Source: a virus. Taken from it: DNA of 38,723 nucleotides. The notes beneath the pieces were generated by a model, which saw only the letters and a list, made by a program, of their open reading frames with translations, had not been told where the DNA came from and did no database searches. The DNA lies in IMG/VR virus record IMGVR_UViG_3300046798_000030, positions 1 to 38,723 of that record; one strand, given 5' to 3'. Positions 8,772 to 35,626 of this stretch are shown here, piece by piece (the stretch's first letter is position 1; each line of letters opens with the position of its first letter). Both the position numbers and the translations under genes were made by a program.

Positions 8772-9136
8772 GTTCTGTTCTTCCTGCAAGCGTACCTCTA
8801 AGTCTGTGGGAGGAATTCAGGAAGATGAGAAAGAAGAAACGCGCCCCTCTAACGGAGTATGCTGAAACACTTATTCTGTGCAAGCTGGAGAAGTGGCGGG
8901 TGGAGTCAAACGCTGATGTGATAGCGATCTTGAACGAATCAATAGAGAGAGGCTGGTCTGGCGTCTTTCTGAACGGACATGCGGCGAGTACCCAAATTGG
9001 TAAAGGGACTGGGCTTAAACCCCATGATTCTGTAGGTTCGAATCCTACCTCGCCGACCAATTGTGCCTCTTGTGGACGATCCTTAGAGGCGGGTTTCAAA
9101 TACTCAAGATTAGGAAAACTGTGCCATGACTGTTGA
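8768..9136 (+). CDS. Phage replication-type protein with an in-frame tRNA gene in its middle
   Basis: A 122-aa reading frame in three parts. Residues 1-70 (LPASVPLSLWEEFRKMRKKK, then PLTEYAETLILCKLEKW and IAILNESIERGWSGVF) match the short C-terminal segment of many phage replication-initiator-like proteins. Residues ~72-97 are the translation of a tRNA-Leu gene. Residues 98-122 (NCASCGRSLEAGF...LGKLCHDC) form a CxxC...CxxC zinc knuckle. The frame stays open through the tRNA. Either one protein with a tRNA-encoded linker is made, or the tRNA inserted near the 3' end and the zinc part is a remnant or separate product. Confidence 0.6.
   Translation: MSSVLPASVPLSLWEEFRKMRKKKRAPLTEYAETLILCKLEKWRVESNADVIAILNESIERGWSGVFLNGHAASTQIGKGTGLKPHDSVGSNPTSPTNCASCGRSLEAGFKYSRLGKLCHDC
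8982..9059 (+). tRNA. tRNA-Leu (anticodon UAA), CCA encoded
   Basis: Full cloverleaf: acceptor CGGCGAG/CTCGCCG (7 bp), D arm CCC/GGG with TTGG in the loop, and anticodon stem CTGGG/CCCAT (4 of 5 pairs). The anticodon loop is CTTAAAC with anticodon TAA at 9016-9018. The T arm is GTAGG/CCTAC with loop TTCGAAT, then ACCA. The variable region is only six bases (GATTCT), short for a leucine tRNA, which usually has a long variable arm. It lies wholly inside the 8768-9136 reading frame. Confidence 0.85.
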
Positions 9137-11852: not shown

Positions 11853-11984
11853 ATGGCTTTCAAGATGACAGAAAGGGCTAGGGAGGGGAATAGACGACGC
11901 TGTTACAAATGGCGTGAGAAGAACAGAGAGAGGTATAACGAGATCATCCGGGCTTGGAAAGCCAAGCATGGGAAAAGAAAGTGA
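11853..11984 (+). CDS. Small basic protein (43 aa) leading the cassette
   Basis: Reads MAFKMTERAREGNRRRCYKW then REKNRERYNEIIRAWKAK. It is strongly basic and helical, like the basic arm that precedes HNH domains in phage nucleases but without the domain. The TGA overlaps the next GTG (GTGA). It could bind nucleic acid or act only as a leader cistron. No Shine-Dalgarno sequence. Confidence 0.55.
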   Translation: MAFKMTERAREGNRRRCYKWREKNRERYNEIIRAWKAKHGKRK

Positions 11985-12547
11985 CCCATACCGGCCAATT
12001 CCTTCAAGAAGTCCAGGAAATTGCCAGAACGCTCCCAGAGGCCCAGATAGAGTCTATGGTAGTGGAGCTCAAAGCCCTTCGGGATCGTGGCGGCAGGCTC
12101 TTTCTGATAGGTCTGGGGGGGTCTGCTGCTAACTGTTCCCATGCAGTAAATGACTTTAGAAGACTTTGCGGTATAGACGCCTCAAGCCCTGTGGATAACT
12201 CCTCAGAACTCACAGCAGCGGCTAACGACCAGGGATGGGAGAAATGTCTCCTAAATCCCTTCCTGAAAGCAGGAGATGCTTTGTTCGTATTCTCGGTCGG
12301 CGGGGGTACGGCTCATACCAGCTTCGGGTTGGTAAAAGCGATCACTCAGGCTAAAGAGAAGAAGTGTCGAGTTTTCGGCGTTGTAGGCAGGTCTGACGGA
12401 TGGACAGCTTGTTATTCAGATATAGCTGTCGTAATCCCAACAGTCTCAGCAGAACGAATCACCCCCCATACAGAAGCCTTCCAAATGGTGATTCTTCATC
12501 TTCTAGTATCCCATCCTGACCTACAGATTAGGAATACACGATGGTAG
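11981..12547 (+). CDS. SIS-domain sugar-phosphate isomerase, GmhA-like
   Basis: A 188-aa protein beginning at GTG 11981 (a TTG 27 bases earlier is possible). It shows the SIS fold order: LFLIGLGGSAANCSHAVNDF, then ND-G, GDALFVFSVGGGTAHTSFGL, VFGVVGRSDG and VIPTVSAERITPHTEAFQMV. This matches D-sedoheptulose-7-phosphate isomerases, which make D-glycero-D-manno-heptose 7-phosphate. The TPHTEAFQ subfamily occurs in polysaccharide clusters. It is coupled to the transaldolase downstream, whose product would be its substrate. Substrate is inferred. Confidence 0.75.
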   Translation: MTHTGQFLQEVQEIARTLPEAQIESMVVELKALRDRGGRLFLIGLGGSAANCSHAVNDFRRLCGIDASSPVDNSSELTAAANDQGWEKCLLNPFLKAGDALFVFSVGGGTAHTSFGLVKAITQAKEKKCRVFGVVGRSDGWTACYSDIAVVIPTVSAERITPHTEAFQMVILHLLVSHPDLQIRNTRW

Positions 12548-13230
12548 AAGTTTGGCTCGACTCAGCCGACATAAACGAAATGATTCGGCTGGCTCCCAAG
12601 GTCTCGGGCTTCACGACTAATCCCACTTTGATGAGGAAGGCGAATGTCCACGACTACAAGTCATGGGCGAAGATCGTCCTAGACCATTTCCCTGATAAGC
12701 CGGTCTCTTTTGAAGTCATTGGAGATGACTGGGATACGATCTATGACCAAGCGATCAAGCTCTCCAGTTGGGGAGAGAATGTCTATGTCAAAATCCCTAT
12801 CGTTCTGACAAATGGCGTCCCGATGCATGATGCGGTCAAGGCTTTGATGAGAGAGAACGTCAAGGTCAATGTAACTGCCGTGATGGAAGAAGACCAGATG
12901 AGAGCCCTAGCCCATTCGGTGCGGAGAAGTTTCCCTGCTGTTGTTTCAATCTTTGCAGGAAGGATTGCTGATACGGGGCGAGACCCAGTTATTTGGATGA
13001 ACAAAGCTTGTGAGATATTTGGGCACCTATCCGAAGTCAAAATCCTGTGGGCGAGCGCCAGGGAAGTCTTGAATGTCAAACAAGCCGCTGGGACTCATTG
13101 TCATATCATCACCCTCCCTCCGGACCTTATTGCCAAGCTGGATTTGGTAGGAAAAGACTTGACACAATTCTCTATCGAAACCTCACAAATGTTCTATAAC
13201 GATGCACAGAAAGCGGGGTATGTAATTTGA
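12541..13230 (+). CDS. Transaldolase (TalC/fructose-6-phosphate aldolase-like)
   Basis: A 229-aa short-type transaldolase. D8 (WLDSAD), the TTNPT motif (25-29) and Schiff-base lysine K84 (NVYVKIP) are present. Later come TAVMEEDQM, VSIFAGRIADTGRDP and KILWASARE. Family reactions transfer a dihydroxyacetone unit; a full transaldolase would form sedoheptulose-7-phosphate from fructose-6-phosphate and erythrose-4-phosphate. Cyanophages carry small TalC enzymes for carbon redirection, but here it sits in a sugar-nucleotide operon, so feeding heptose synthesis is more likely. Confidence 0.85.
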   Translation: MVEVWLDSADINEMIRLAPKVSGFTTNPTLMRKANVHDYKSWAKIVLDHFPDKPVSFEVIGDDWDTIYDQAIKLSSWGENVYVKIPIVLTNGVPMHDAVKALMRENVKVNVTAVMEEDQMRALAHSVRRSFPAVVSIFAGRIADTGRDPVIWMNKACEIFGHLSEVKILWASAREVLNVKQAAGTHCHIITLPPDLIAKLDLVGKDLTQFSIETSQMFYNDAQKAGYVI

Positions 13231-14216
13231 ACGTTCTAGTTACGGGCGGCGCAGGATATGTGGGTTCGAGACTTGTTCCAAAGCTTTTCGGAGAAGGTCA
13301 CAAAGTCACGGTCTATGATGCCTGTTGGTTTGGGAATGGATACCTGACTGATGACGAAGACCATCCTATTATCAAAGCGGACATCCGAGACCTGACAGCG
13401 TTTGAGAAAGCCTGTCAAGGTCAGGAGGTTGTCATTCACTTAGCTTGTATTTCTAACGACACGAGTTGCCAACTAGATGAGAAACTTTCGACTTCGATCA
13501 ACTATGATGCGTTCGAGCCTTTGGTTAAGACCGCGAAGAAGGCCGGGGTTAAGCGATTCATCTATTGTTCCTCAAGTTCGGTCTATGGGGTTTCGGAGGC
13601 TCCAGAAATCACAGAAGAACATCCCCTTGTCCCGCTTACTCTATACAACAAGTATAAGGGACTTTGCGAACCTATCCTCTTTCGTCATATGGATGACTCG
13701 TTCGAATGTGTCGTTATCCGACCGGCTACAGTGTGCGGATACGCTCCGAGAATGAGATTCGACCTAACCGTCAATATCATGACCAACCATGCAGCAAAGA
13801 ATGGAGTTATCACAGTCTTTGGAGGTGGACAGAAACGACCTAACCTGCACATAGATGATATGTGCGATGTGTACAAGCTTCTGATTACTGCTCCCAAGGA
13901 GAAGATTCAAGGCCAAATCTTCAACGTGGGATATGCGAATATGCGGGTGATTGAGATCGCGGAGCTTGTCTCTAAAACAGTAGGAGACTTCTACAATACA
14001 GCTATTGCAATCCAAGTCCAGGGGAATACAGACAACCGTAGTTACCATATCAACTCGGACAAGATCAAACGAGTCCTCGGATACGAACCTCAAAGGACTG
14101 TAGAGAACGCAATCACAGACATCTGCGCCCGCTTCAAAGATGGATACATGAAAGATTCCCTTACCAATCCGATCTACCTCAACATAGGACAGTATCTTGA
14201 AAGTGGTATTGGCTAA
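13227..14216 (+). CDS. NAD(P)-dependent nucleotide-sugar epimerase/dehydratase
   Basis: A 329-aa extended SDR starting at TTG (TTGA overlap). GGAGYVGSR at the N-terminus binds NAD, IHLACIS follows, and SSSSVYG and LYNKYKG provide the S-Y-K catalytic set. VIRPATVCGY and NLHIDDMCDVY are also typical of GalE/RmlB-like enzymes. It would epimerise or dehydrate a nucleotide-activated sugar. Substrate specificity cannot be read from sequence. Confidence 0.85.
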   Translation: MNVLVTGGAGYVGSRLVPKLFGEGHKVTVYDACWFGNGYLTDDEDHPIIKADIRDLTAFEKACQGQEVVIHLACISNDTSCQLDEKLSTSINYDAFEPLVKTAKKAGVKRFIYCSSSSVYGVSEAPEITEEHPLVPLTLYNKYKGLCEPILFRHMDDSFECVVIRPATVCGYAPRMRFDLTVNIMTNHAAKNGVITVFGGGQKRPNLHIDDMCDVYKLLITAPKEKIQGQIFNVGYANMRVIEIAELVSKTVGDFYNTAIAIQVQGNTDNRSYHINSDKIKRVLGYEPQRTVENAITDICARFKDGYMKDSLTNPIYLNIGQYLESGIG

Positions 14217-14589
14217 CGGCTGTTTCGATCCGCTGCACTATGGGCATTTGCTCCATTTGGAAGCGGCGAAGAAACTAGGGGATACATTGATAGTGAGTGT
14301 GACTCGCGATCCGTATGTCAACAAAGGCGAGGGTAGGCCAGTCTTTAACGATGTTCAGCGTGCCCATATGCTCAGAGCTTTACGCTGTGTGGATGGGGTT
14401 TTCGTTTGCGCGAGTGCATTAGAGGCGTTGTTGACTTGTGGGCCGGATATTTTCGTGAAAGGGAAAGAATACAAAGAACAGATTGAAAAGGCGGATTTGG
14501 AATATTGCAAGAAAGCCGGGATACGAATCGAGTTTACCGATACGCCGAAATGGTCATCTACTGCTTTGCTTCATCATTATGCTTCCTGA
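14197..14589 (+). CDS. Sugar-phosphate nucleotidylyltransferase, HldE C-domain-like
   Basis: A 130-aa cytidylyltransferase-fold protein. NGCFDPLHYGH (7-17) is the HxGH nucleotide-binding motif; GRPVFNDVQRAHMLRALRCV and PDIFVKGKEYK follow, and SSTALLHHY ends it. This is the order seen in the ADP-heptose synthase domain of HldE. It would join a nucleotide to heptose-1-phosphate. In HldE the kinase comes first in one chain; here it is a separate gene placed before the kinase. Start TTG 14197 overlaps the epimerase by 20 bp. Confidence 0.8.
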   Translation: MKVVLANGCFDPLHYGHLLHLEAAKKLGDTLIVSVTRDPYVNKGEGRPVFNDVQRAHMLRALRCVDGVFVCASALEALLTCGPDIFVKGKEYKEQIEKADLEYCKKAGIRIEFTDTPKWSSTALLHHYAS

Positions 14590-15400
14590 CGTTTCAAAGC
14601 TGAAAGTCTTGCTGGTAGGGGATGCAATCATAGACCAGTATTGCTATGTCACTCCCTTAGGTAAGTCGATCAAAGACAACATGCTCTCGGTTCAATACAA
14701 CAAGAGCGAGACCTTTGAAGGAGGGGTGTGGGCTGCTGCTAAACACGTCAAAGGCTTTTGCGATCGTGTAGACATCATGACTGGTTCAGGTGTCACTACA
14801 AACAAGCGGTTTGTAGAAGAAGCCTACATGAGGAAATTGTTTGTAGTTCACGAATACCGGAAGACTCAATTCCAACCCCGAGTAAGTTTTACAGATTACG
14901 ATCTAGTCATAGTCACTGACTTTGGACACGGCGCGGTGACACCTGAACTCATTGCTGAACTAACGGTGAGTGCCAAGTTCCTAGCAGTGAACACCCAGAC
15001 GAACACATCGAACTTCGGCTTTAACATGATTACCAAATACCCGAGGGCTGATTATGTCGTCCTGGATGAACTAGAAGCTAGACTAGCTGTTCACGACAGA
15101 ACCTCCAGTTTAGAGGAAATCATCCCCAAGCTAGGATTTACTAAAGTCATAGTAACCCAAGGCTATTTAGGTGCAGTGGGGTTTAACGGGACGTTCTATC
15201 AGCAACAAGCCGTAGCGAGTAAGGTAGTCGATACGATGGGAGCGGGGGACGCTTTTCTCTCAGTCTCTGCTCCTTTCGCTTGTCTAGGTCTTTCAATGGA
15301 AGAACTTGTAAGGATAGGTAATGCTGCTGCAGCGGTGAAGGTCTCTACTGTGGGTCACCGGACTTCGGTTACTCCTGAATCTTTGAAGGCATATCTATGA
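14579..15400 (+). CDS. PfkB-family sugar kinase, HldE N-domain-like
   Basis: A 273-aa ribokinase-fold protein. VGDAIIDQYCYV opens it, as in heptose-phosphate kinases. A GG pair follows (FEGGVW) and DTMGAGDAF (218-226) carries the catalytic aspartate. Likely phosphorylates heptose-7-phosphate at C1 to provide the substrate of the nucleotidylyltransferase encoded just before it. The ATG at 14579 lies inside the upstream gene's end; longer frame starts are out of keeping with the family. The GmhB phosphatase needed in the classical pathway is not encoded here. Confidence 0.8.
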   Translation: MLPDVSKLKVLLVGDAIIDQYCYVTPLGKSIKDNMLSVQYNKSETFEGGVWAAAKHVKGFCDRVDIMTGSGVTTNKRFVEEAYMRKLFVVHEYRKTQFQPRVSFTDYDLVIVTDFGHGAVTPELIAELTVSAKFLAVNTQTNTSNFGFNMITKYPRADYVVLDELEARLAVHDRTSSLEEIIPKLGFTKVIVTQGYLGAVGFNGTFYQQQAVASKVVDTMGAGDAFLSVSAPFACLGLSMEELVRIGNAAAAVKVSTVGHRTSVTPESLKAYL

Positions 15401-16338
15401 AGTTTGCAATTCTCGGGCCTAGCTGCTTCGGGATCAACCTAGCCCTCTATCTACAGAGCCAAGGCCATGAAGTCTTCGGTATTGGTAGAAGTGGTAGGAG
15501 ACCTGAACCTTTCAACCTAGGACTGAAGTGGGAGTATCACAAGTACCATCTGACTTATGAGCCTGAGCCTGTGGTTCACTTACTCAGACAGAAAAAGCCT
15601 GACTTCATTATCAACTTTGCCGCTCAAGGCGAGTCTGCTGCTTCGTTTGGTGAAGATTCTTGGAGGTACTATGAAACGAACTGTCTTGGTCTTTCGCGGT
15701 TGGTCGCTCGTCTGGAGTCGGTCTTCATTCAAATCGGGTCAAGTGAAGTCTATGGGCCTACAGTTAATCCGGCGAAAGAGGAACAAGCCATTACTCCTAC
15801 GTCACCCTACTCGATCAGCAAAGGTGCTTTCGACCAACACCTCCAAGCCATCAAAGGCGTGGCTTTCAACATCATCCGTCCTTCCAATGCCTATTGTGCT
15901 GGACAGCAGCTTCACAGAATCATACCGAAGACCTTACTCCAGGGCTGTATGGGCAGGAAACTCCAACTCCAAGGAGGAGGAAAAGCTAAAAAGTCATACA
16001 TAGACGCTCACGACCTCTCAAGAGCGATTCTCTTAGTTTGTCAGAAAGGAACCCGTGGAGAAATCTACAACGTCGGCCCCAATGATCCAGTATCAATCAG
16101 ACAAGTTGTGGAAATCGCTGCAAGCTATGCTGGACGAACATTTGACGACTTCATCCAGAATACACCTGCAAGATTTGGAGAAGACAAGCAATACTGGATT
16201 GACTCCTCAAGAATACGGGCGCTTGGGTGGACTCCAGAGACATCGCTCAAAGCCGGTATAGGTAAAGTCTGGGAGTGGGTGAGAGACAACAAAGAAGCAC
16301 TAGGACGGCTTCCTACTGAGTTTCAAATGCGTCCATGA
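15397..16338 (+). CDS. NAD-dependent epimerase/dehydratase (second)
   Basis: A 313-aa extended SDR. The N-terminal ILGPSCFGINLALYLQSQGH is a less canonical nucleotide site than in its neighbour. Then INFAAQGES, GSSEVYGP and PYSISKGAFDQHL (catalytic Y and K), IIRPSNAYC, and a C-terminal ALGWTPET. It resembles dTDP/GDP-sugar dehydratases and ADP-heptose epimerases. The replacement of GxxGxxG by GPSCFG may alter cofactor binding. ATGA overlap with the kinase. Confidence 0.8.
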   Translation: MKFAILGPSCFGINLALYLQSQGHEVFGIGRSGRRPEPFNLGLKWEYHKYHLTYEPEPVVHLLRQKKPDFIINFAAQGESAASFGEDSWRYYETNCLGLSRLVARLESVFIQIGSSEVYGPTVNPAKEEQAITPTSPYSISKGAFDQHLQAIKGVAFNIIRPSNAYCAGQQLHRIIPKTLLQGCMGRKLQLQGGGKAKKSYIDAHDLSRAILLVCQKGTRGEIYNVGPNDPVSIRQVVEIAASYAGRTFDDFIQNTPARFGEDKQYWIDSSRIRALGWTPETSLKAGIGKVWEWVRDNKEALGRLPTEFQMRP

Positions 16339-17003
16339 AAGTCTATATTCTCGGGGATCAATCTGATATAGCCAAGTCTCTCAAATTCATGCTGGAGATG
16401 GATGGGCATGAAGTCTTTGGCTGGCATAGAGGAGAAGAATTCAAAGTTACTAATTGGAACCTCATCATCTCAACGCTTGGTAGCGTGGCTCCTATAGGGC
16501 TTTGGAACAAGCCCCAACCCTACAATCAGGTAGTTCCTTGGGATGAGTCATTTCAATCTAATCTGCTTCTACCGATCAAGCTTCTCAGACAGTTGTGGGA
16601 TTCCAGGCTAAACAATCCGCAAGTGTGCTTCATGGCAGGGTCGAATCCGCAAAAGATCATGCCAGGATATGCGCCTTACAATGCTTCGAAAATGGCCCTC
16701 CTGAAAGCTGTCGAACAGTTAGACTTTGAGACTCCTGAATGCAAGTTCTTCGCTTTGGGGCCGGGATACATAGACACCAAGATTCACAAGCCTACCCTAG
16801 ATGCGAACTGGCCCAATGAGCGTATTGCTAGAGGCAAGCCTAACAGTGTCGAGCAAGTTTATGACTGCCTCAACTGGTGCTTAGACCAACCAAAAGAAGT
16901 AGTCGGTGGGCGGAATATCTGTGTCTCCGATCCCTACGGGCCTGAATTAGCTGAAAGACTGAAGGCTGATTCCAATCTCTACAAGCTTCGCAGAGCAGAA
17001 TGA
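16335..17003 (+). CDS. Short-chain dehydrogenase/reductase
   Basis: A 222-aa SDR-fold protein. The nucleotide-binding start is YILGDQSDIAKSL, a shortened glycine motif. IISTLGSVAP stands in place of NNAG, FMAGSN supplies the serine strand and YAPYNASKMALLKAVEQL the YxxxK pair. ALGPGYIDTKIH matches the usual post-catalytic PG-v-T segment. Probably reduces a keto group on the nucleotide sugar. Overlaps on both sides indicate it belongs to the same pathway. Confidence 0.7.
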   Translation: MKVYILGDQSDIAKSLKFMLEMDGHEVFGWHRGEEFKVTNWNLIISTLGSVAPIGLWNKPQPYNQVVPWDESFQSNLLLPIKLLRQLWDSRLNNPQVCFMAGSNPQKIMPGYAPYNASKMALLKAVEQLDFETPECKFFALGPGYIDTKIHKPTLDANWPNERIARGKPNSVEQVYDCLNWCLDQPKEVVGGRNICVSDPYGPELAERLKADSNLYKLRRAE

Positions 17004-17641
17004 TTCACTTCATTGGCACTTCGTTTGCTGCGAGACATCTAAAGGCGGCTGCTATTGCTCGTGGGATTCCGGTTACAGACTTGTTCGAAGATGCCTCGTT
17101 GATCTTTGTCTCTGAAGACACTCCGACTAATGAGAAGGGCGAGCGAGACCTCGATCTAATACGGCAGTTACTGCTGTTTGCTAATGGCAGACCTATCGTT
17201 CTGACCTCTCAAGTCCCTGTGGGATTCACACGCAGTCTAGGGAATGACAATATCTATCATCAAGCCGAGACCTTGAGAATCAAGGATGCTGAAGAACGAG
17301 CCTTAAACCCCGAGCAGATCATCGTGGGGCATTGCGGTAAGCCTCATGCAGTACCTACTGAATACATGAACTACTTAAATGCTTTCCAGTGTCCTATCCA
17401 CTGGATGAATTGGGAGGAAGCCGAGTTCTCCAAGATCGCTATCAACATGACCTTAATCTCGCAGGTTGAGAACACAAACAAACTCAATGCCTATGCTCAA
17501 AGGCATGGCCTTCGATGGGAGAAGATTCAAGATGTGTTGATGAGCGATGAAAGAATAGGTCGTGAATCCTATCTAACCCCTGGTCGGTGGCAAGACTCCA
17601 AGCACTTGATGAGAGATTGGGTGACGTTTGAAAGTAGCTAA
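17000..17641 (+). CDS. Truncated UDP-glucose/GDP-mannose dehydrogenase-like protein
   Basis: A 213-aa protein. LFEDASLIFVSEDTPTNEKG, IVLTSQVPVGFTRS and EAEFSKIAINMTLISQVENT correspond to the end of the NAD domain and the central helical domain of nucleotide-sugar dehydrogenases. The N-terminal glycine-rich site is shortened and the C-terminal domain with the catalytic cysteine is absent. It probably does not oxidise sugars as the family does; it may have another role or be degenerate. The open frame and tight coupling argue against simple decay. Confidence 0.6.
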   Translation: MIHFIGTSFAARHLKAAAIARGIPVTDLFEDASLIFVSEDTPTNEKGERDLDLIRQLLLFANGRPIVLTSQVPVGFTRSLGNDNIYHQAETLRIKDAEERALNPEQIIVGHCGKPHAVPTEYMNYLNAFQCPIHWMNWEEAEFSKIAINMTLISQVENTNKLNAYAQRHGLRWEKIQDVLMSDERIGRESYLTPGRWQDSKHLMRDWVTFESS

Positions 17642-18143
17642 TCTGGTAGCTGAATTCTTGAGGGATCAGGGAATCAAGCATGTGTTCTGTATCTCTGGCG
17701 GGGCGAGTCTTCATCTCATACACGGTATAGCCGAAACTGAAGGAATAGATTATGTCTGTCCACAAACTGAACAAGCCGCTGGCTTTGCTGCGGATAGCTA
17801 CGCGAGACTTAGAGGACTCGGCTGCGCGCTTGCGACTTCAGGCCCTGGAGCTACAAACCTTGTTACAGCGATTGCAGCAAGCTACTACGACTCTATACCA
17901 GTGCTTTACCTCACTGGAAACGTCACTACTGGAAGAATGTCCCGAGGACGAGTCAGACAGCTTGGATTCCAGGAAACTCCAATAGTCCCCATGGTGAAGT
18001 ACATCACTAAATATGCAACTACCGTTGAAGAGCCGTGGGCTGTAATAGGATTCATGCGAGCATGTATTCACGATATGAAAGCCGGACGACCTGGGCCGGG
18101 ACTGATAGATATTCCAGATGATGTCCAACGCGCCGAAGTCTAG
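17628..18143 (+). CDS. TPP-dependent enzyme, N-terminal (PYR) domain
   Basis: A 171-aa protein equal to the first domain of acetolactate-synthase-like TPP enzymes. VFCISGGASLHLIHGI, CPQTEQAAGFAADSYARL with the cofactor-activating E48, and ATSGPGATNLVTAIA are clear, and PGPGLIDIPDDVQRAEV ends it exactly where the central domain usually begins. The next frame continues the family without loss of residues, overlapping by 26 bases in the +1 phase. It could be a natural two-subunit form or depend on frameshifting. Start TTG 17628. Confidence 0.75.
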   Translation: MKVANLVAEFLRDQGIKHVFCISGGASLHLIHGIAETEGIDYVCPQTEQAAGFAADSYARLRGLGCALATSGPGATNLVTAIAASYYDSIPVLYLTGNVTTGRMSRGRVRQLGFQETPIVPMVKYITKYATTVEEPWAVIGFMRACIHDMKAGRPGPGLIDIPDDVQRAEV

Positions 18144-19278
18144 ACCTATCCTGATTTATGGGGCAGGTATTCATTTGTCAGGCTGCGAAAAGGAGGCAAT
18201 AGAATATGCTGAACGAATTAATGTTCCTGTTGTGCCTACTTGGGGTGGTCTTGATCTTATGCCTAGCTCCCATCCACTACATGTCGGTTCTTTTGGTACT
18301 CATGGGACTCGCGCTGGGAATTTTGCTGTACAGAATGCAACGCACATCACAGCTATTGGAACCAGACTCGACTCGAAAGCAACAGGAACCCCAATAGAAT
18401 CGTTCGCTCGTGAGGCAGAAGTGGTAATGGTCGATATTGACCAACGAGAGATAAACAAATTCAAAGGGCGGGTTATCGGTAGGTGCATGGATGCCAAGGA
18501 ATATCTCTCAAGTCCTTTTGTTCCATTCCCGCTTACGGCTGATTGGCGAGAACGAATAGATGAATGGAAGAAGAAGTACCCAGTTGTCAAACCTGAATAC
18601 CGCAGAGAACCAGGGGTAAATCCATATGTATTCCTTGAGGCGCTTTCAGAACAGGTTCCGGAAGATGCGGTCGTGTGTACCGACACCGGGTGTGCTGTGG
18701 CCTGGGTTTCGCAAGTATGGAAATGGAAGAAGGGGCAAAGATTCATTCATGCTTTCAATCAAACGCCGATGGGTTATGGACTACCTGCGGCCATAGGTGC
18801 TTACTATGCTGGAGCTAAAAGCATAGTTCTCATAACAGGCGATGGTAGTTTGATGATGAACATAGGCGAATTGGCTACAGTCTCAAGGAAAAAACTACCA
18901 ATTCATATCTATATGTTCAACAATCAAGGTCATGCGATGTGTCGCCAGACGCAAAGAGAGTGGCTTGGTAGTACCTATCCAAGCACTTCGATTGAAGGGG
19001 GATTGAGTTTTCCCAACTTCACAGGGTGGGCTTGGTATTCCGGTAATGCAGGCATACCGGCTTGGATCATTAAGAAAATGGAAGGCTTGGATAATGAAAA
19101 ATGGATTAGATACAAGCAAACTTTTGAAGGGCCATTATTCTGTGAGATAGAGATTGATCCTAATTGTGATGTAGTCCCTAAAGTCAAGTATGGATATCCC
19201 AATGAGGATGGGCATCCTCTCTTGCCTAGAGAAGAATTCAACCAACAGATGATTGTGAAGCCATGGATCGTGAGTTAG
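18118..19278 (+). CDS. TPP-dependent enzyme, central and C-terminal (PP) domains
   Basis: A 386-aa protein. It opens with a Rossmann-like central domain (RPILIYGAGIHLSG, VPVVPTWGGLD, THITAIGTRLDSKATG). The TPP-binding domain follows: TDTGCAV, FNQTPMGYGLPAAIGAYY and the GDG...NN site with GDG at 241-243 and NN at 268-269. Together with the previous gene it makes a full enzyme with all key residues. Acetolactate-synthase relatives in sugar clusters (for example YerE) add a two-carbon branch to keto-sugars, so a branched sugar is possible. Confidence 0.75.
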   Translation: MMSNAPKSRPILIYGAGIHLSGCEKEAIEYAERINVPVVPTWGGLDLMPSSHPLHVGSFGTHGTRAGNFAVQNATHITAIGTRLDSKATGTPIESFAREAEVVMVDIDQREINKFKGRVIGRCMDAKEYLSSPFVPFPLTADWRERIDEWKKKYPVVKPEYRREPGVNPYVFLEALSEQVPEDAVVCTDTGCAVAWVSQVWKWKKGQRFIHAFNQTPMGYGLPAAIGAYYAGAKSIVLITGDGSLMMNIGELATVSRKKLPIHIYMFNNQGHAMCRQTQREWLGSTYPSTSIEGGLSFPNFTGWAWYSGNAGIPAWIIKKMEGLDNEKWIRYKQTFEGPLFCEIEIDPNCDVVPKVKYGYPNEDGHPLLPREEFNQQMIVKPWIVS

Positions 19279-20042
19279 TTCAAAGAATGCTATGTAAGTC
19301 CTTCGGCCCGTTCGGGGAGATTCATCTACCCTACATACGGATGGGGAAGATCGACTCCCTAGATTTGTTCGGGGTGACTGAGCTAATCATCATGGCGTTC
19401 TATTGGGAGAACAGATTCAGGTACAAACGAGTTCTCGATATAGGCGCAAACATAGGACTTCATTCGATCTTGATGGACAGATTGAAATGGGAGGTAAAGG
19501 CATATGAACCAGACTTCGCCCATTACGGATGGCTACTTGGTAATCTTCAACGGAATGACTGCACTCACGTCAAACCGCACATGGCGGCTGTTTATACACA
19601 AGCGGGGGAAGCCAATTTTGTTAGAGTGCTTAACAACCTCACCGGAAACCATTTGGAATCATTCAAGGATTCCTATGGCCCTCGTGAGACTGTCATCGTT
19701 CCTACTGTGGATTGCAGTCCGCTGTTTGATTGGGCTGATTTTGCGAAACTCGATTGTGAAGGCGTAGAGGCTGAACTACTGCTTACAACTACCAAGAGCC
19801 AAATGAAGCATCTAGACATCATTGCAGAGGTCAGAAACGAGGCTAATGCCATGAAAATCTACGATCATTTCAATACTATTGGAGTGCCCATTTGGTCGCA
19901 GAAGAACCAATGGTTTCACGTGGAACATCTAGATCAGATGCCCCATGTGAATCGGGAAGGCTCTATTTTCATTGGACATAACCCGCCGTTTGCCTTGACA
20001 CGTCCAATCTCAAAGAGTAGTGTCGAAATGCAGTCAATATGA
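19263..20042 (+). CDS. FkbM-family methyltransferase
   Basis: A 259-aa SAM-dependent methyltransferase. VLDIGANIGLHS (57-68) is motif I, VKAYEPDF follows as motif II, and KLDCEGVE (162-169) is the FkbM hallmark. The N-terminal ~50 residues and the C-terminal VEHLDQMP region are less conserved. It probably O-methylates a sugar made by the preceding genes. It is the last enzyme of the cassette and overlaps both neighbours (the next by ATGA). Confidence 0.8.
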   Translation: MDRELVQRMLCKSFGPFGEIHLPYIRMGKIDSLDLFGVTELIIMAFYWENRFRYKRVLDIGANIGLHSILMDRLKWEVKAYEPDFAHYGWLLGNLQRNDCTHVKPHMAAVYTQAGEANFVRVLNNLTGNHLESFKDSYGPRETVIVPTVDCSPLFDWADFAKLDCEGVEAELLLTTTKSQMKHLDIIAEVRNEANAMKIYDHFNTIGVPIWSQKNQWFHVEHLDQMPHVNREGSIFIGHNPPFALTRPISKSSVEMQSI

Positions 20043-32358: not shown

Positions 32359-32663
32359 ACTTCAAAGCTGTACAAGATGTAGTAATCATCAGGAGAACCC
32401 CTCAGCAGGAAATCTCTGCCGGGGGGATTTTCTTAGTCGATTCCAAAGATTTTCTAGAAGACATCGGTACGGTAGAAGAAGCAGGGCCGGGGAAGTTGTC
32501 TTCTAAAGGCGTCTTCATCCCAAACGATGTGAAAAAGGGAGATGTAGTCCTATTCTCTACTGGAGGGCATCAGGTCACTAAATTGAACGGAACAGAGTTC
32601 ATCGTGACCCGACAGAACTCAATCATGGCGGTACTGAATGAGTCTTCTCGCCCCAATAGTTGA
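32355..32663 (+). CDS. GroES-like co-chaperonin
   Basis: A 102-aa Cpn10-fold protein. FKAVQDVVIIRRTPQQEISA then GGIFLVDS contains the mobile loop with GGIFL, the GroEL-contact tripeptide position, and DIGTVEEAGPGKLS, KKGDVVLFSTGG and FIVTRQNSIMAVL follow in the family order. It would work with host GroEL to fold coat protein, as T4 gp31 does. The start GTG overlaps the previous stop. No GroEL is encoded in the window. Confidence 0.85.
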   Translation: MNFKAVQDVVIIRRTPQQEISAGGIFLVDSKDFLEDIGTVEEAGPGKLSSKGVFIPNDVKKGDVVLFSTGGHQVTKLNGTEFIVTRQNSIMAVLNESSRPNS

Positions 32664-33342
32664 CTACCTGAAAACCCTTGAAATAAAGGGTGAGGTCTTG
32701 TTTATCGGCTATCAAACCGAATTCAAGCCTCTAGATATACCTCATATGATACTCGACCAGTCGGACTATGAAGGGGCAGATATCGTCTGGGACTTGGGTT
32801 ATCCCGTACCCGAAGATTTACACAACAGGTTCGATTTCATCTTCAATGGGGGGTGTCTAGACAATATGTTCAACCCCGCCCAAGCGATGATGAACTTCAG
32901 CAAGATGCTAAAACCAGGGGGTAGAGTCGTTTGCATGGAGTCTGCTTCCTCATTTAACAGCCCCTACCTCATGTACTCCCCCGGATGGTTCTGTGACTAC
33001 TATCGGGAGAACAACTTCATTGAGTGGGAGGCTTACATCTGCTCGTATAAATCTATGAGGGAGCTTCTTTACGGCCCTTGGAGATGGTTCAAATACAAGT
33101 GGGAAGGTAACAAGAACGGCCCCTCACCCAAGACGCATGGGAATCACATTCTAGTAGTCAGTATGGCTAGAAAAGGCCCGGAGACGACTTCAGATAAGCA
33201 ACCTATCCAACATCAGTACAGGAAAGACGCAGTTGGTACTCCTGCGGTTGGAAGTATCTGGCCTCTGATAACCGATTCTCTTGGGTTCACTTTATACAAG
33301 AGCGAGACTCACTTACATGAAGTGGAAAACTTTTCACATTGA
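32638..33342 (+). CDS. Methyltransferase-like protein
   Basis: A 234-aa protein with a Rossmann-type start but a degenerate SAM loop (EVLFIGYQTEFKPLD). DIVWDLGYPVPEDLHNRFDF and AMMNFSKMLKPGGRVVCMES match the mid and late motifs of class I methyltransferases. The 3' part (from residue ~185) is unlike the family. SAM binding is uncertain because the glycine loop is missing. It is encoded between GroES and a glycosyltransferase, so it may modify a glycan or virion protein. Confidence 0.6.
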   Translation: MSLLAPIVDYLKTLEIKGEVLFIGYQTEFKPLDIPHMILDQSDYEGADIVWDLGYPVPEDLHNRFDFIFNGGCLDNMFNPAQAMMNFSKMLKPGGRVVCMESASSFNSPYLMYSPGWFCDYYRENNFIEWEAYICSYKSMRELLYGPWRWFKYKWEGNKNGPSPKTHGNHILVVSMARKGPETTSDKQPIQHQYRKDAVGTPAVGSIWPLITDSLGFTLYKSETHLHEVENFSH

Positions 33343-33475: not shown

Positions 33476-35626
33476 ATGAAGGTCAGTGTCTGTACTTCGG
33501 TTCTCAATCAATCGACATATCTGAAAAAGATGATTGAGTCTGTAAAGGCTCAGTCGTTCGAGGATTGGGAATTGGTGATCGTTGACGATGGTTCTACAGA
33601 GGACATCGAAGGAGTAATACGCGAGTTCAACGATCCAAGGATCAGACTCCACAAGTTCCCTACTAACAGGGGTATCCCTCACGGACTTAACTGGGCGCTG
33701 ACTCATGCTTTAGGTGAGTATGTCCAACCCCTCTCAGCAGACGAATGGATTGAGAAGGACAAGCTAAAAATCCAAGTAGAGTTCATGGACTCACATCCTG
33801 AAATCGGATGTGTCTGGGGGCTTCCGGGTAAAGGTCTTATGGGTGAAAGACCTTTGTGGGAGCAGAACACTCTAAGAGCACACAACAGGAGTTCAGAGGC
33901 TTGGGTAAGAACCCTATTGACTCTGGATAACATCCCCATTGGTGGAGCTTCGATGCTGATGAGGAAGTCTATTGTTGAAGATATAGGTGTCTTCGATCCT
34001 CAGATTTTCTATTGCTCAGACCTTGAATGGTTCGTCCGATTCTTCAAGAAGTATGAAGGGATGGTACTGCCTTATAGATGGGCCGATGCCGATCAACCGG
34101 ACACTAGACTTACCGCACCCAAGCCGGATTCAGCGGAGAAGTTCGCTAAAGACATCATGTTGGTGAGGAAGAAGCATCAAGTAAAACTCCCTCCGATTGA
34201 GGGTAAAGTCACGGTTGGAATTCCAGTCTTCAATATGGCGAAGTTCATTCCTCAAGCTCTGGATTCGGTTCTGAACCAGACCTATAAGGACTTGGAGATT
34301 CTAGTTCTAGACGACGCTTCTACAGACAATCTGGCAGAAGTCCTTACACCTTACGCAGAGAAGATCAAATACCTGAAGTTCGACGAGAACAGGGGTACTG
34401 TAAAAGCTATTAATCAAATGGCCTCATTAGCTACTGGAGAGTTCTACGTTTCTCTAGCTGCTGACGATTTGATCGAGCCTAACTTCATTGAAAAAGCACT
34501 AGGAGAGTTCAAGAAAGACGCTTGGCTTGAATTTGTCGCTTCCCAAACTGATTTCATCAATGAAGAAGGAAAGCCGTTCGCTGAAGACCATCCTTTCAAA
34601 AACATCCCCAAAGCTGCTAACAAGTCCAGGGATCAGTGGTTGACCCATATGTACTATGGGAACGTCTATTTCGGGGTGGGAATGTATCGGACGAAGACGA
34701 TCAAATCAGTCGGTGGTTGGGCTGACTGTGGAGTCCTTACAGATTATGAGATGTATCTCAAGCTTTTACAGAGAGAGAACATCAAGATCATCGAGGAACC
34801 ACTTACTCATACGAGAATTCATGGAGAGAACAAAAGTCTTCTAAAGCCTGAAGAATCCAGGAAACTGAAGCAGCGATACCACGACGCTAAAATCCCTTAC
34901 TACCAGCCTAGAATGAAGGTGATTCTGGCGACTCCTTTCTATGAGATGAGAGGGTTTAGTCCATACATTCAAAGTATGGTCTATACGACCAAGGTTTTGA
35001 CTCAATTAGGGATTGAGTGGGAGTGGCACGAGCTTTCTGGAGACTCTTATGTAGACCGTGCAAAGAACACGATCACCATGAGGTTCCTGGAAGACCCGGA
35101 TGCTACAGACCTCTTTATCATCGACTCGGATATGCAATGGAATCCAGACGCTCTAATCAAGATTCTCCAACTGCCGGAACAGATTGTAATGGGGTCTTAT
35201 CCTCAGAAAAACTCATGGGATAAGTGGACTTCCATCCCTGTTCTGAAAGAGGAAAACGGAAAGCATCATCCTGTTGGCAGAGTCTTACCTGATGGTACGG
35301 CTTTGATCCAAGCGGAATACATATCAGGTGGGTTTATCAGGATGAAACGAGAGTGTCTAGTGAAGTTCAAAGACCACTATAAAGACATGACCTACCAAGA
35401 CAGTTCTGCCGATCCTTCCTACCCTGAACGTATGTACACAGAATTCTACACCTGTGAGAGAGCAGATGGATTGAGGTGGGGTGAGGATAGAGTCTTCGGT
35501 AAGAGGATGAGAGCTATAGGAGTGGAAGGGTATATCTATCCCAATATCCACTTCGGACACTATGGAATCAAAGGTTGGATGGGTAACTATGACACGTTCT
35601 TGAGGAATCCTCCAAAGGCGGCCTAA
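33476..35626 (+). CDS. Three-domain glycosyltransferase (two GT2 plus a third GT-A)
   Basis: A 716-aa protein. Domain 1 (residues ~1-230) starts MKVSVCTSVLNQSTYLKKMI, has VDDGSTED and LSADEW. Domain 2 (~244-460) starts KVTVGIPVFNMAKFIPQALD, has LDDASTDN and the DxD-like SLAADD. Domain 3 (~475-716) starts MKVILATPFYEMRGFSPYIQ and has FIIDSDMQWNPD (DxD) and EYISGGFIRMKREC. It transfers sugars from nucleotide donors. Between methyltransferase and tail genes, it is the likely user of the cassette's product. DxD in domain 1 is less clear. Confidence 0.85.
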   Translation: MKVSVCTSVLNQSTYLKKMIESVKAQSFEDWELVIVDDGSTEDIEGVIREFNDPRIRLHKFPTNRGIPHGLNWALTHALGEYVQPLSADEWIEKDKLKIQVEFMDSHPEIGCVWGLPGKGLMGERPLWEQNTLRAHNRSSEAWVRTLLTLDNIPIGGASMLMRKSIVEDIGVFDPQIFYCSDLEWFVRFFKKYEGMVLPYRWADADQPDTRLTAPKPDSAEKFAKDIMLVRKKHQVKLPPIEGKVTVGIPVFNMAKFIPQALDSVLNQTYKDLEILVLDDASTDNLAEVLTPYAEKIKYLKFDENRGTVKAINQMASLATGEFYVSLAADDLIEPNFIEKALGEFKKDAWLEFVASQTDFINEEGKPFAEDHPFKNIPKAANKSRDQWLTHMYYGNVYFGVGMYRTKTIKSVGGWADCGVLTDYEMYLKLLQRENIKIIEEPLTHTRIHGENKSLLKPEESRKLKQRYHDAKIPYYQPRMKVILATPFYEMRGFSPYIQSMVYTTKVLTQLGIEWEWHELSGDSYVDRAKNTITMRFLEDPDATDLFIIDSDMQWNPDALIKILQLPEQIVMGSYPQKNSWDKWTSIPVLKEENGKHHPVGRVLPDGTALIQAEYISGGFIRMKRECLVKFKDHYKDMTYQDSSADPSYPERMYTEFYTCERADGLRWGEDRVFGKRMRAIGVEGYIYPNIHFGHYGIKGWMGNYDTFLRNPPKAA

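Follow-up and report, generated by a model that had tools for sequence, protein, structure and literature searches.

A probable heptose-type sugar cassette with its own transaldolase in a podovirus-like phage

Among described systems, the bacterial ADP-L-glycero-D-manno-heptose pathway (GmhA, HldE, GmhB, HldD) and gene groups of cyanophages come closest to the locus reported here. The pathway shares with it an isomerase, a PfkB kinase and a nucleotidylyltransferase from the same superfamilies, and relatives of the locus also encode a GmhB-type phosphatase. Cyanophage P-SSM2 has adjacent, overlapping genes for a nucleotidylyltransferase, a PfkB-like kinase and a SIS-domain isomerase (annotated as phosphoheptose isomerase), accompanied by a nucleotide-sugar epimerase gene and next to one for a tail fibre, and cyanophage S-CAM3 has a kinase and a SIS isomerase with a heptose-epimerase gene; these annotated genes indicate that a phage heptose-type cassette is already known. 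Here, we describe a cassette of eleven open reading frames (ORFs) at positions 11981-20042 of IMG/VR virus record IMGVR_UViG_3300046798_000030, whose 38,723 bases are referred to below as the window. The window also contains terminase, portal, scaffold, P22-type coat and head-closure genes, and the phage is podovirus-like, with a P22-like coat. We propose that the cassette is probably a bacterial surface-polysaccharide module in compact form, carried by a phage and making a nucleoside diphosphate (NDP)-activated heptose-type sugar.

An overlapping gene cassette shared with a sister phage

All eleven ORFs run rightward, with overlaps of 4-26 nt between neighbours at every junction; a further 4 nt are shared by the last gene and the phage ORF that follows it (start 20039). 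Their order is SIS-TAL-EPI1-NT-KIN-EPI2-SDR-UGDH-like-TPPN-TPPMC-FkbM, where SIS denotes the isomerase, TAL the transaldolase, EPI1 and EPI2 epimerases 1 and 2, NT the nucleotidylyltransferase, KIN the kinase, SDR a short-chain dehydrogenase/reductase, UGDH UDP-glucose dehydrogenase, and TPPN and TPPMC the N and M+C parts of a thiamine pyrophosphate (TPP) enzyme (Table 1). An earlier note on this DNA had proposed one rightward operon of ten enzymes acting in the order of ADP-heptose synthesis. Its genes, direction and coordinates were correct, but the ORFs number eleven: the UGDH-like ORF at 17000-17641 had been omitted and the TPP enzyme occupies two. The order matches that of ADP-heptose synthesis only approximately, as NT precedes the kinase, for which we place the start at an ATG at 14579, correcting an earlier call. 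A tRNA-Leu (TAA) gene lies upstream, at 8982-9059.

The same eleven genes recur in the same order in a sister phage from another metagenome (G001, 43,317 bases), and the terminase gene lies directly downstream of the cassette in both. The two phages share 77% identity in the coat protein, 86% in the terminase and 54-80% in the cassette proteins. Synonymous divergence (dS) is at least 1.4 or not computable, silent sites being saturated or nearly so, and nonsynonymous divergence (dN) is 0.15-0.41, with coat and terminase behaving alike. These values point to purifying selection on the cassette, which, together with the shared gene set and order, argues that it is neither an assembly accident nor a chance grouping. 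Because the gene set matches a bacterial island (see below), it could be supposed that bacterial DNA was joined to a phage contig or that a transferred fragment is decaying; we regard this as highly improbable, given that the sister phage keeps the genes intact and in order beside its terminase, that the genes are compact and overlapping, and that cassette variants are found in further related phages.

Among these same-coat phages, G008 and G025 carry EPI1-EPI2-SDR-TPPN-TPPMC-(FkbM)-NT-KIN-SIS' without a transaldolase, and G009 carries part of this arrangement; G010 and G015 have a smaller SDR-TPPN-TPPMC part, as does G012 with EPI1 in addition. SIS' is a distinct and closer GmhA relative (82-86 bits). 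Since these phages pair NT-KIN with SIS' in place of SIS-TAL, it seems that the two can substitute for each other in feeding the nucleotidylyltransferase and kinase. A separate, much larger virus of 126.8 kb (L293) encodes a nucleotidylyltransferase and a kinase that score 102 bits to rfaE_dom_II and 104 bits to rfaE_dom_I, respectively, as well as an epimerase sharing 52% identity with EPI1.

The transaldolase-isomerase pair and the activating enzymes

From the enzyme families we infer the following substrates and reaction order. Acting most likely on fructose-6-phosphate and erythrose-4-phosphate to give sedoheptulose-7-phosphate, the transaldolase would supply a ketose phosphate that SIS would convert to an aldose phosphate; the PfkB kinase would then add a phosphate at C1 and the nucleotidylyltransferase would activate the sugar phosphate. 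The host would supply the 7-phosphatase step, for which most relatives have a gene lying between those for SIS and TAL.

The first link of this scheme, that the transaldolase feeds the isomerase, had been suggested in the earlier note and has strong genomic support. The two ORFs overlap by 7 nt, and among loci retrieved by SIS, a transaldolase lies near it in 71 of 80 bacterial and 72 of 77 newly fetched viral loci. In a reverse sample of 38 bacterial loci with a TIGR02134 transaldolase, drawn regardless of SIS (two of them from seed genomes), 28 have SIS no more than about 1.5 kb away, and in 34 the transaldolase is accompanied by SIS, GmhB or epimerase 1. The adjacency is thus conserved in both directions, in bacteria and in viruses, for a family that is itself rare (3/200, 6/296 and 42/385 genomes in our samples). 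The pairing is apparently a widespread and undescribed unit of bacterial surface-sugar clusters: a literature search, with most subscription journals outside its reach, returned no description of a transaldolase in a heptose-type cluster. In INPHARED, the best transaldolase matches (45-48%) are in Staphylococcus phage records, which we suspect to be bacterial DNA, and no SIS relative was found at 1e-5.

The phage transaldolase conserves the catalytic Lys84; S136 and F138 are invariant, and R141 and E58 nearly so. E58 matches the TalB E96 site, at which Glu is the transaldolase-type residue. By these positions the protein is predicted to be of the transaldolase rather than the fructose-6-phosphate aldolase type, the distinguishing TalB sites being Phe at F178, Ser176 and the phosphate-binding Arg181 (PMC3962226). 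It could instead be an auxiliary gene of central metabolism, with the role proposed for TalC of cyanophages in the pentose phosphate shunt (supplying NADPH or nucleotides), and stand in a sugar operon by chance. Transaldolases are indeed common in cyanophages (448 phage records, mostly of cyanophages), but these form another branch, at about 30% identity, and the linkage of the TIGR02134 branch to SIS, GmhB or epimerase 1, like the 7-nt overlap here, makes this explanation unlikely.

For the three activating enzymes, the best NCBIfam models are gmhA (TIGR00441) for SIS, rfaE_dom_I (TIGR02198) for the kinase and rfaE_dom_II (TIGR02199) for NT, and none of the three has a non-heptose sugar family as its best match. 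The kinase is about 30 residues shorter by alignment and retains the PfkB GAGD catalytic motif (DTMGAGDAF). When the AF2 model of SIS (pLDDT 90) was compared with the PDB by Foldseek, ranks 1-25 were all GmhA (TM up to 0.78), with DiaA, HxlB-like and KdsD structures below them; SIS therefore groups with GmhA and not with other SIS isomerases, a grouping that the earlier note had named among the tests of its heptose interpretation.

Several observations weigh against a heptose product. Every member of the set falls short of its curated cut-off: SIS scores 43.7 against 209.45 bits, the kinase 67.8 against 345, NT 90.4 against 181.5 and the transaldolase 257.4 against 281.95, although the Polynucleobacter transaldolase in the equivalent position reaches 346 bits. 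Two of the four GmhA metal ligands are changed in SIS (residue table): the site reads H-D-E-H (H54 D58 E165 H173) in 34 of 34 relatives and also in SIS', compared with H-E-Q-H in two GmhA-type proteins. The GmhA zinc ligands His, Glu, Gln and His are reported to be fully conserved among orthologues, and mutation of each of the four to lower activity (PMC5705639). The phage lacks the phosphatase, and among seven island genomes searched, three encode a further SIS that scores 186-202 bits against gmhA, slightly under the cut-off, and four a kinase above the rfaE_dom_I cut-off; with such closer GmhA/HldE homologs elsewhere in several of these genomes, the substrate of the island set may be a different sugar. 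Given the scores and the altered metal site, we call the trio heptose-like rather than GmhA/HldE, which keeps the family assignments of the earlier note while placing all three enzymes wide of the curated models, and SIS is best described as a predicted isomerase, a heptose-like paralog with a GmhA fold and an altered metal site.

These points bear on a less probable alternative, in which a pathway of the same type acts on a non-heptose sugar, or on another ketose phosphate formed by the transaldolase from a different acceptor aldehyde. The exchange of D/E for E/Q in the metal site, common to island SIS and the SIS' of sister phages, the distance of all activating enzymes from canonical ones, and the closer GmhA/HldE homologs in several island genomes would all fit it. 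On the other side, the window's three activating enzymes have no better match to another sugar family, and a GmhB-type HAD phosphatase separates SIS from TAL in most relatives, namely in 57 of 67 ordered pairs from bacteria and at least 68 of 90 from viruses; the Polynucleobacter copy scores 120 and 101 bits to GmhB models, under their cut-offs. A profile built from 71 GmhB-type relatives gave no significant match in the window, searched in six frames (best 8.4 bits, E 0.17; positive control 225 bits), or in the sister phage, on contigs that may be incomplete, confirming the absence of GmhB that the earlier note had reported.

Tailoring enzymes, bacterial islands and likely use of the sugar

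To the heptose-type sugar that we favour, epimerase 1, the dehydratase-like epimerase 2, the SDR, the split TPP enzyme and the FkbM methyltransferase would add tailoring steps. Judged from families only, these plausibly comprise 4-keto formation, TPP-dependent C2 addition from pyruvate, reduction and O-methylation; YerE is a precedent for the C2 addition. Neither epimerase is HldD (73.9 bits for EPI1 and 23.9 for EPI2 to TIGR02197, cut-off 274.6); their best NCBIfam matches are GalE and dTDP-glucose 4,6-dehydratase. Epimerase 1 is 80% identical to that of the sister phage and 54-66% identical to those of bacterial islands, and the SDR is 39% identical to that of the Polynucleobacter island. 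The FkbM protein passes TIGR01444 (60.1 bits, cut-off 37.7). The UGDH-like protein has 213 aa compared with 421 aa in the bacterial copy, with much of the Rossmann domain missing, and the catalytic Cys is absent from both phage and island copies (L204:2893-4158). It thus has neither the catalytic Cys nor the complete NAD-binding N domain of a nucleotide-sugar (UDP-glucose) dehydrogenase, and is unlikely to be a normal dehydrogenase. Searching IMG/VR with this protein alone gave no matches.

The TPP enzyme is acetolactate-synthase-like. Its N and M+C domains are separate ORFs in all seven phages having both parts (the window, G001, G008, G010, G012, G015 and G025), whereas the Polynucleobacter enzyme is a single 600-aa ORF; the split version is without the inter-domain linker. 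In three phages the ORFs overlap by 26 nt in an identical relative frame. In another phage they share only a simple 4-nt GTGA overlap, in a different frame, which disfavours a programmed frameshift and makes a coupled split likelier. A search of ten further records, nine from the phage group and one from a 127-kb virus and most of them fragments, found no TPPN.

Each cassette gene has a homolog in a Polynucleobacter island (SIS-GmhB-TAL-EPI1-EPI-NT-KIN-Gfo/Idh-SDR-UGDH-EPI2-SDR-TPP-FkbM), in a region that looks like a polysaccharide locus. With the whole set present there, the phage cassette resembles a bacterial polysaccharide module that has been compacted: it has no GmhB, a shorter kinase and UGDH-like protein, and a split TPP enzyme. 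In several bacteria, NT and kinase are fused into one protein of 519-549 aa with the domains reversed relative to HldE (L036:13946-15505, L049, L057). An 11-gene sugar cluster of Bradyrhizobium ORS285 with a dTDP-glucose dehydratase has been linked to bradyrhizose (PMC4743980, which does not list the cluster genes); we treat this sugar as a lead only for the cassette product.

As to the final sugar and its acceptor, we infer a transfer onto the virion or cell surface by a triple-domain glycosyltransferase, the likely user of the product. In the window, the gene for this protein lies between those for coat and head closure, and in about 33 related phages (48-100% identity) it adjoins that of the coat (major capsid) protein. 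The protein has two GT2 domains and a third domain, and the fold nearest to its AF2 model is that of the two-site chondroitin polymerase K4CP. The tail spike at 2-1975 is pectate-lyase-like, which suggests a polysaccharide receptor.

Table 1. Cassette genes and associated features of the window
Feature	Position	Strand	Evidence
SIS-domain isomerase, GmhA-like, altered metal site H54 D58 E165 H173	11981..12547	+	NCBIfam gmhA 43.7 bits; AF2 pLDDT 90; Foldseek
Transaldolase, TIGR02134 kind	12541..13230	+	257.4 bits; Lys84, E58, S136, F138, R141 kept
NAD-dependent sugar epimerase 1 (SSVYG...YNKYK)	13227..14216	+	Pfam Epimerase 127 bits
HldE-C-like nucleotidylyltransferase (HYGH motif)	14197..14589	+	TIGR02199 rfaE_dom_II 90.4 bits
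PfkB/HldE-N-like sugar kinase, shortened, GAGD intact	14579..15400	+	TIGR02198 67.8 bits; alignment
Epimerase/dehydratase 2, 4,6-dehydratase-like (SSEVYG...YSISK)	15397..16338	+	TIGR01181 131 bits; motif alignment
Short-chain dehydrogenase/reductase, YNASK	16335..17003	+	Pfam adh_short 23 bits, slightly under cut-off; alignment
Truncated nucleotide-sugar-dehydrogenase-like protein, without catalytic Cys	17000..17641	+	TIGR03026 48 bits; alignment
TPP enzyme N domain, own ORF	17628..18143	+	PF02776 4.6e-32
TPP enzyme M+C domains, own ORF	18118..19278	+	PF00205, PF02775
FkbM-family methyltransferase	19263..20042	+	TIGR01444 60.1 bits
Methyltransferase-like protein adjoining glycosyltransferase, possible partner	32638..33342	+	Pfam Methyltransf_23 weak, 24 bits, under cut-off; 72% in sister phage
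Triple-domain glycosyltransferase, 716 aa, in structural block	33476..35626	+	PF00535 194 bits; AF2 pLDDT 90; fold

Implications and comparison with known systems

If the proposed pathway is correct, bacteria and phages with unusual surface sugars would supply their own seven-carbon precursor, beyond the pentose phosphate pool alone, and the TIGR02134 family would gain a function together with a testable enzyme set. It would also suggest that some phages produce the sugar donor for their own capsid-locus glycosyltransferase, which would matter for how virions are glycosylated and for the control of receptors or superinfection. As a speculative extension, TIGR02134 transaldolases might not be housekeeping enzymes but be dedicated to opening an undescribed NDP-heptose-like route (SIS-GmhB-Tal with a reversed NT-kinase) present in many bacterial phyla. 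Phages would then carry a pared-down form of it, in which the split TPP enzyme is specific to the lineage, and use it with the capsid-locus glycosyltransferase to coat their own virions in a branched, methylated sugar.

Aphanizomenon phage Yong-DA was considered as an isolate with the cassette and rejected, as its polysaccharide island is different. P-SSM2 and S-CAM3 are myoviruses whose kinases are 25-29% identical to that of the cassette, and their annotated stretches have no transaldolase and no TPP/SDR/FkbM set; cyanophage TalC, likewise a phage member of the transaldolase/fructose-6-phosphate aldolase superfamily, belongs to the other branch described above. Relative to the ADP-L-glycero-D-manno-heptose pathway, the cassette adds a transaldolase and many tailoring enzymes, has no HldD or GmhB, and uses enzymes that score below the family cut-offs. 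Further counterparts are the bacterial SIS-GmhB-TAL-epimerase-NT-kinase islands (for example in Polynucleobacter IMCC 30228, Nitrospirales and Bradyrhizobium), of which that of Polynucleobacter has homologs of all cassette genes; they differ in having GmhB in most cases, an often fused NT/kinase, a one-piece TPP enzyme, a full-length UGDH, and an extra Gfo/Idh-type oxidoreductase and epimerase/dehydratase. What is new in the phage locus is that it has a transaldolase dedicated to it, a large set of tailoring enzymes and a TPP enzyme in two pieces; the sister lineage is new as well.

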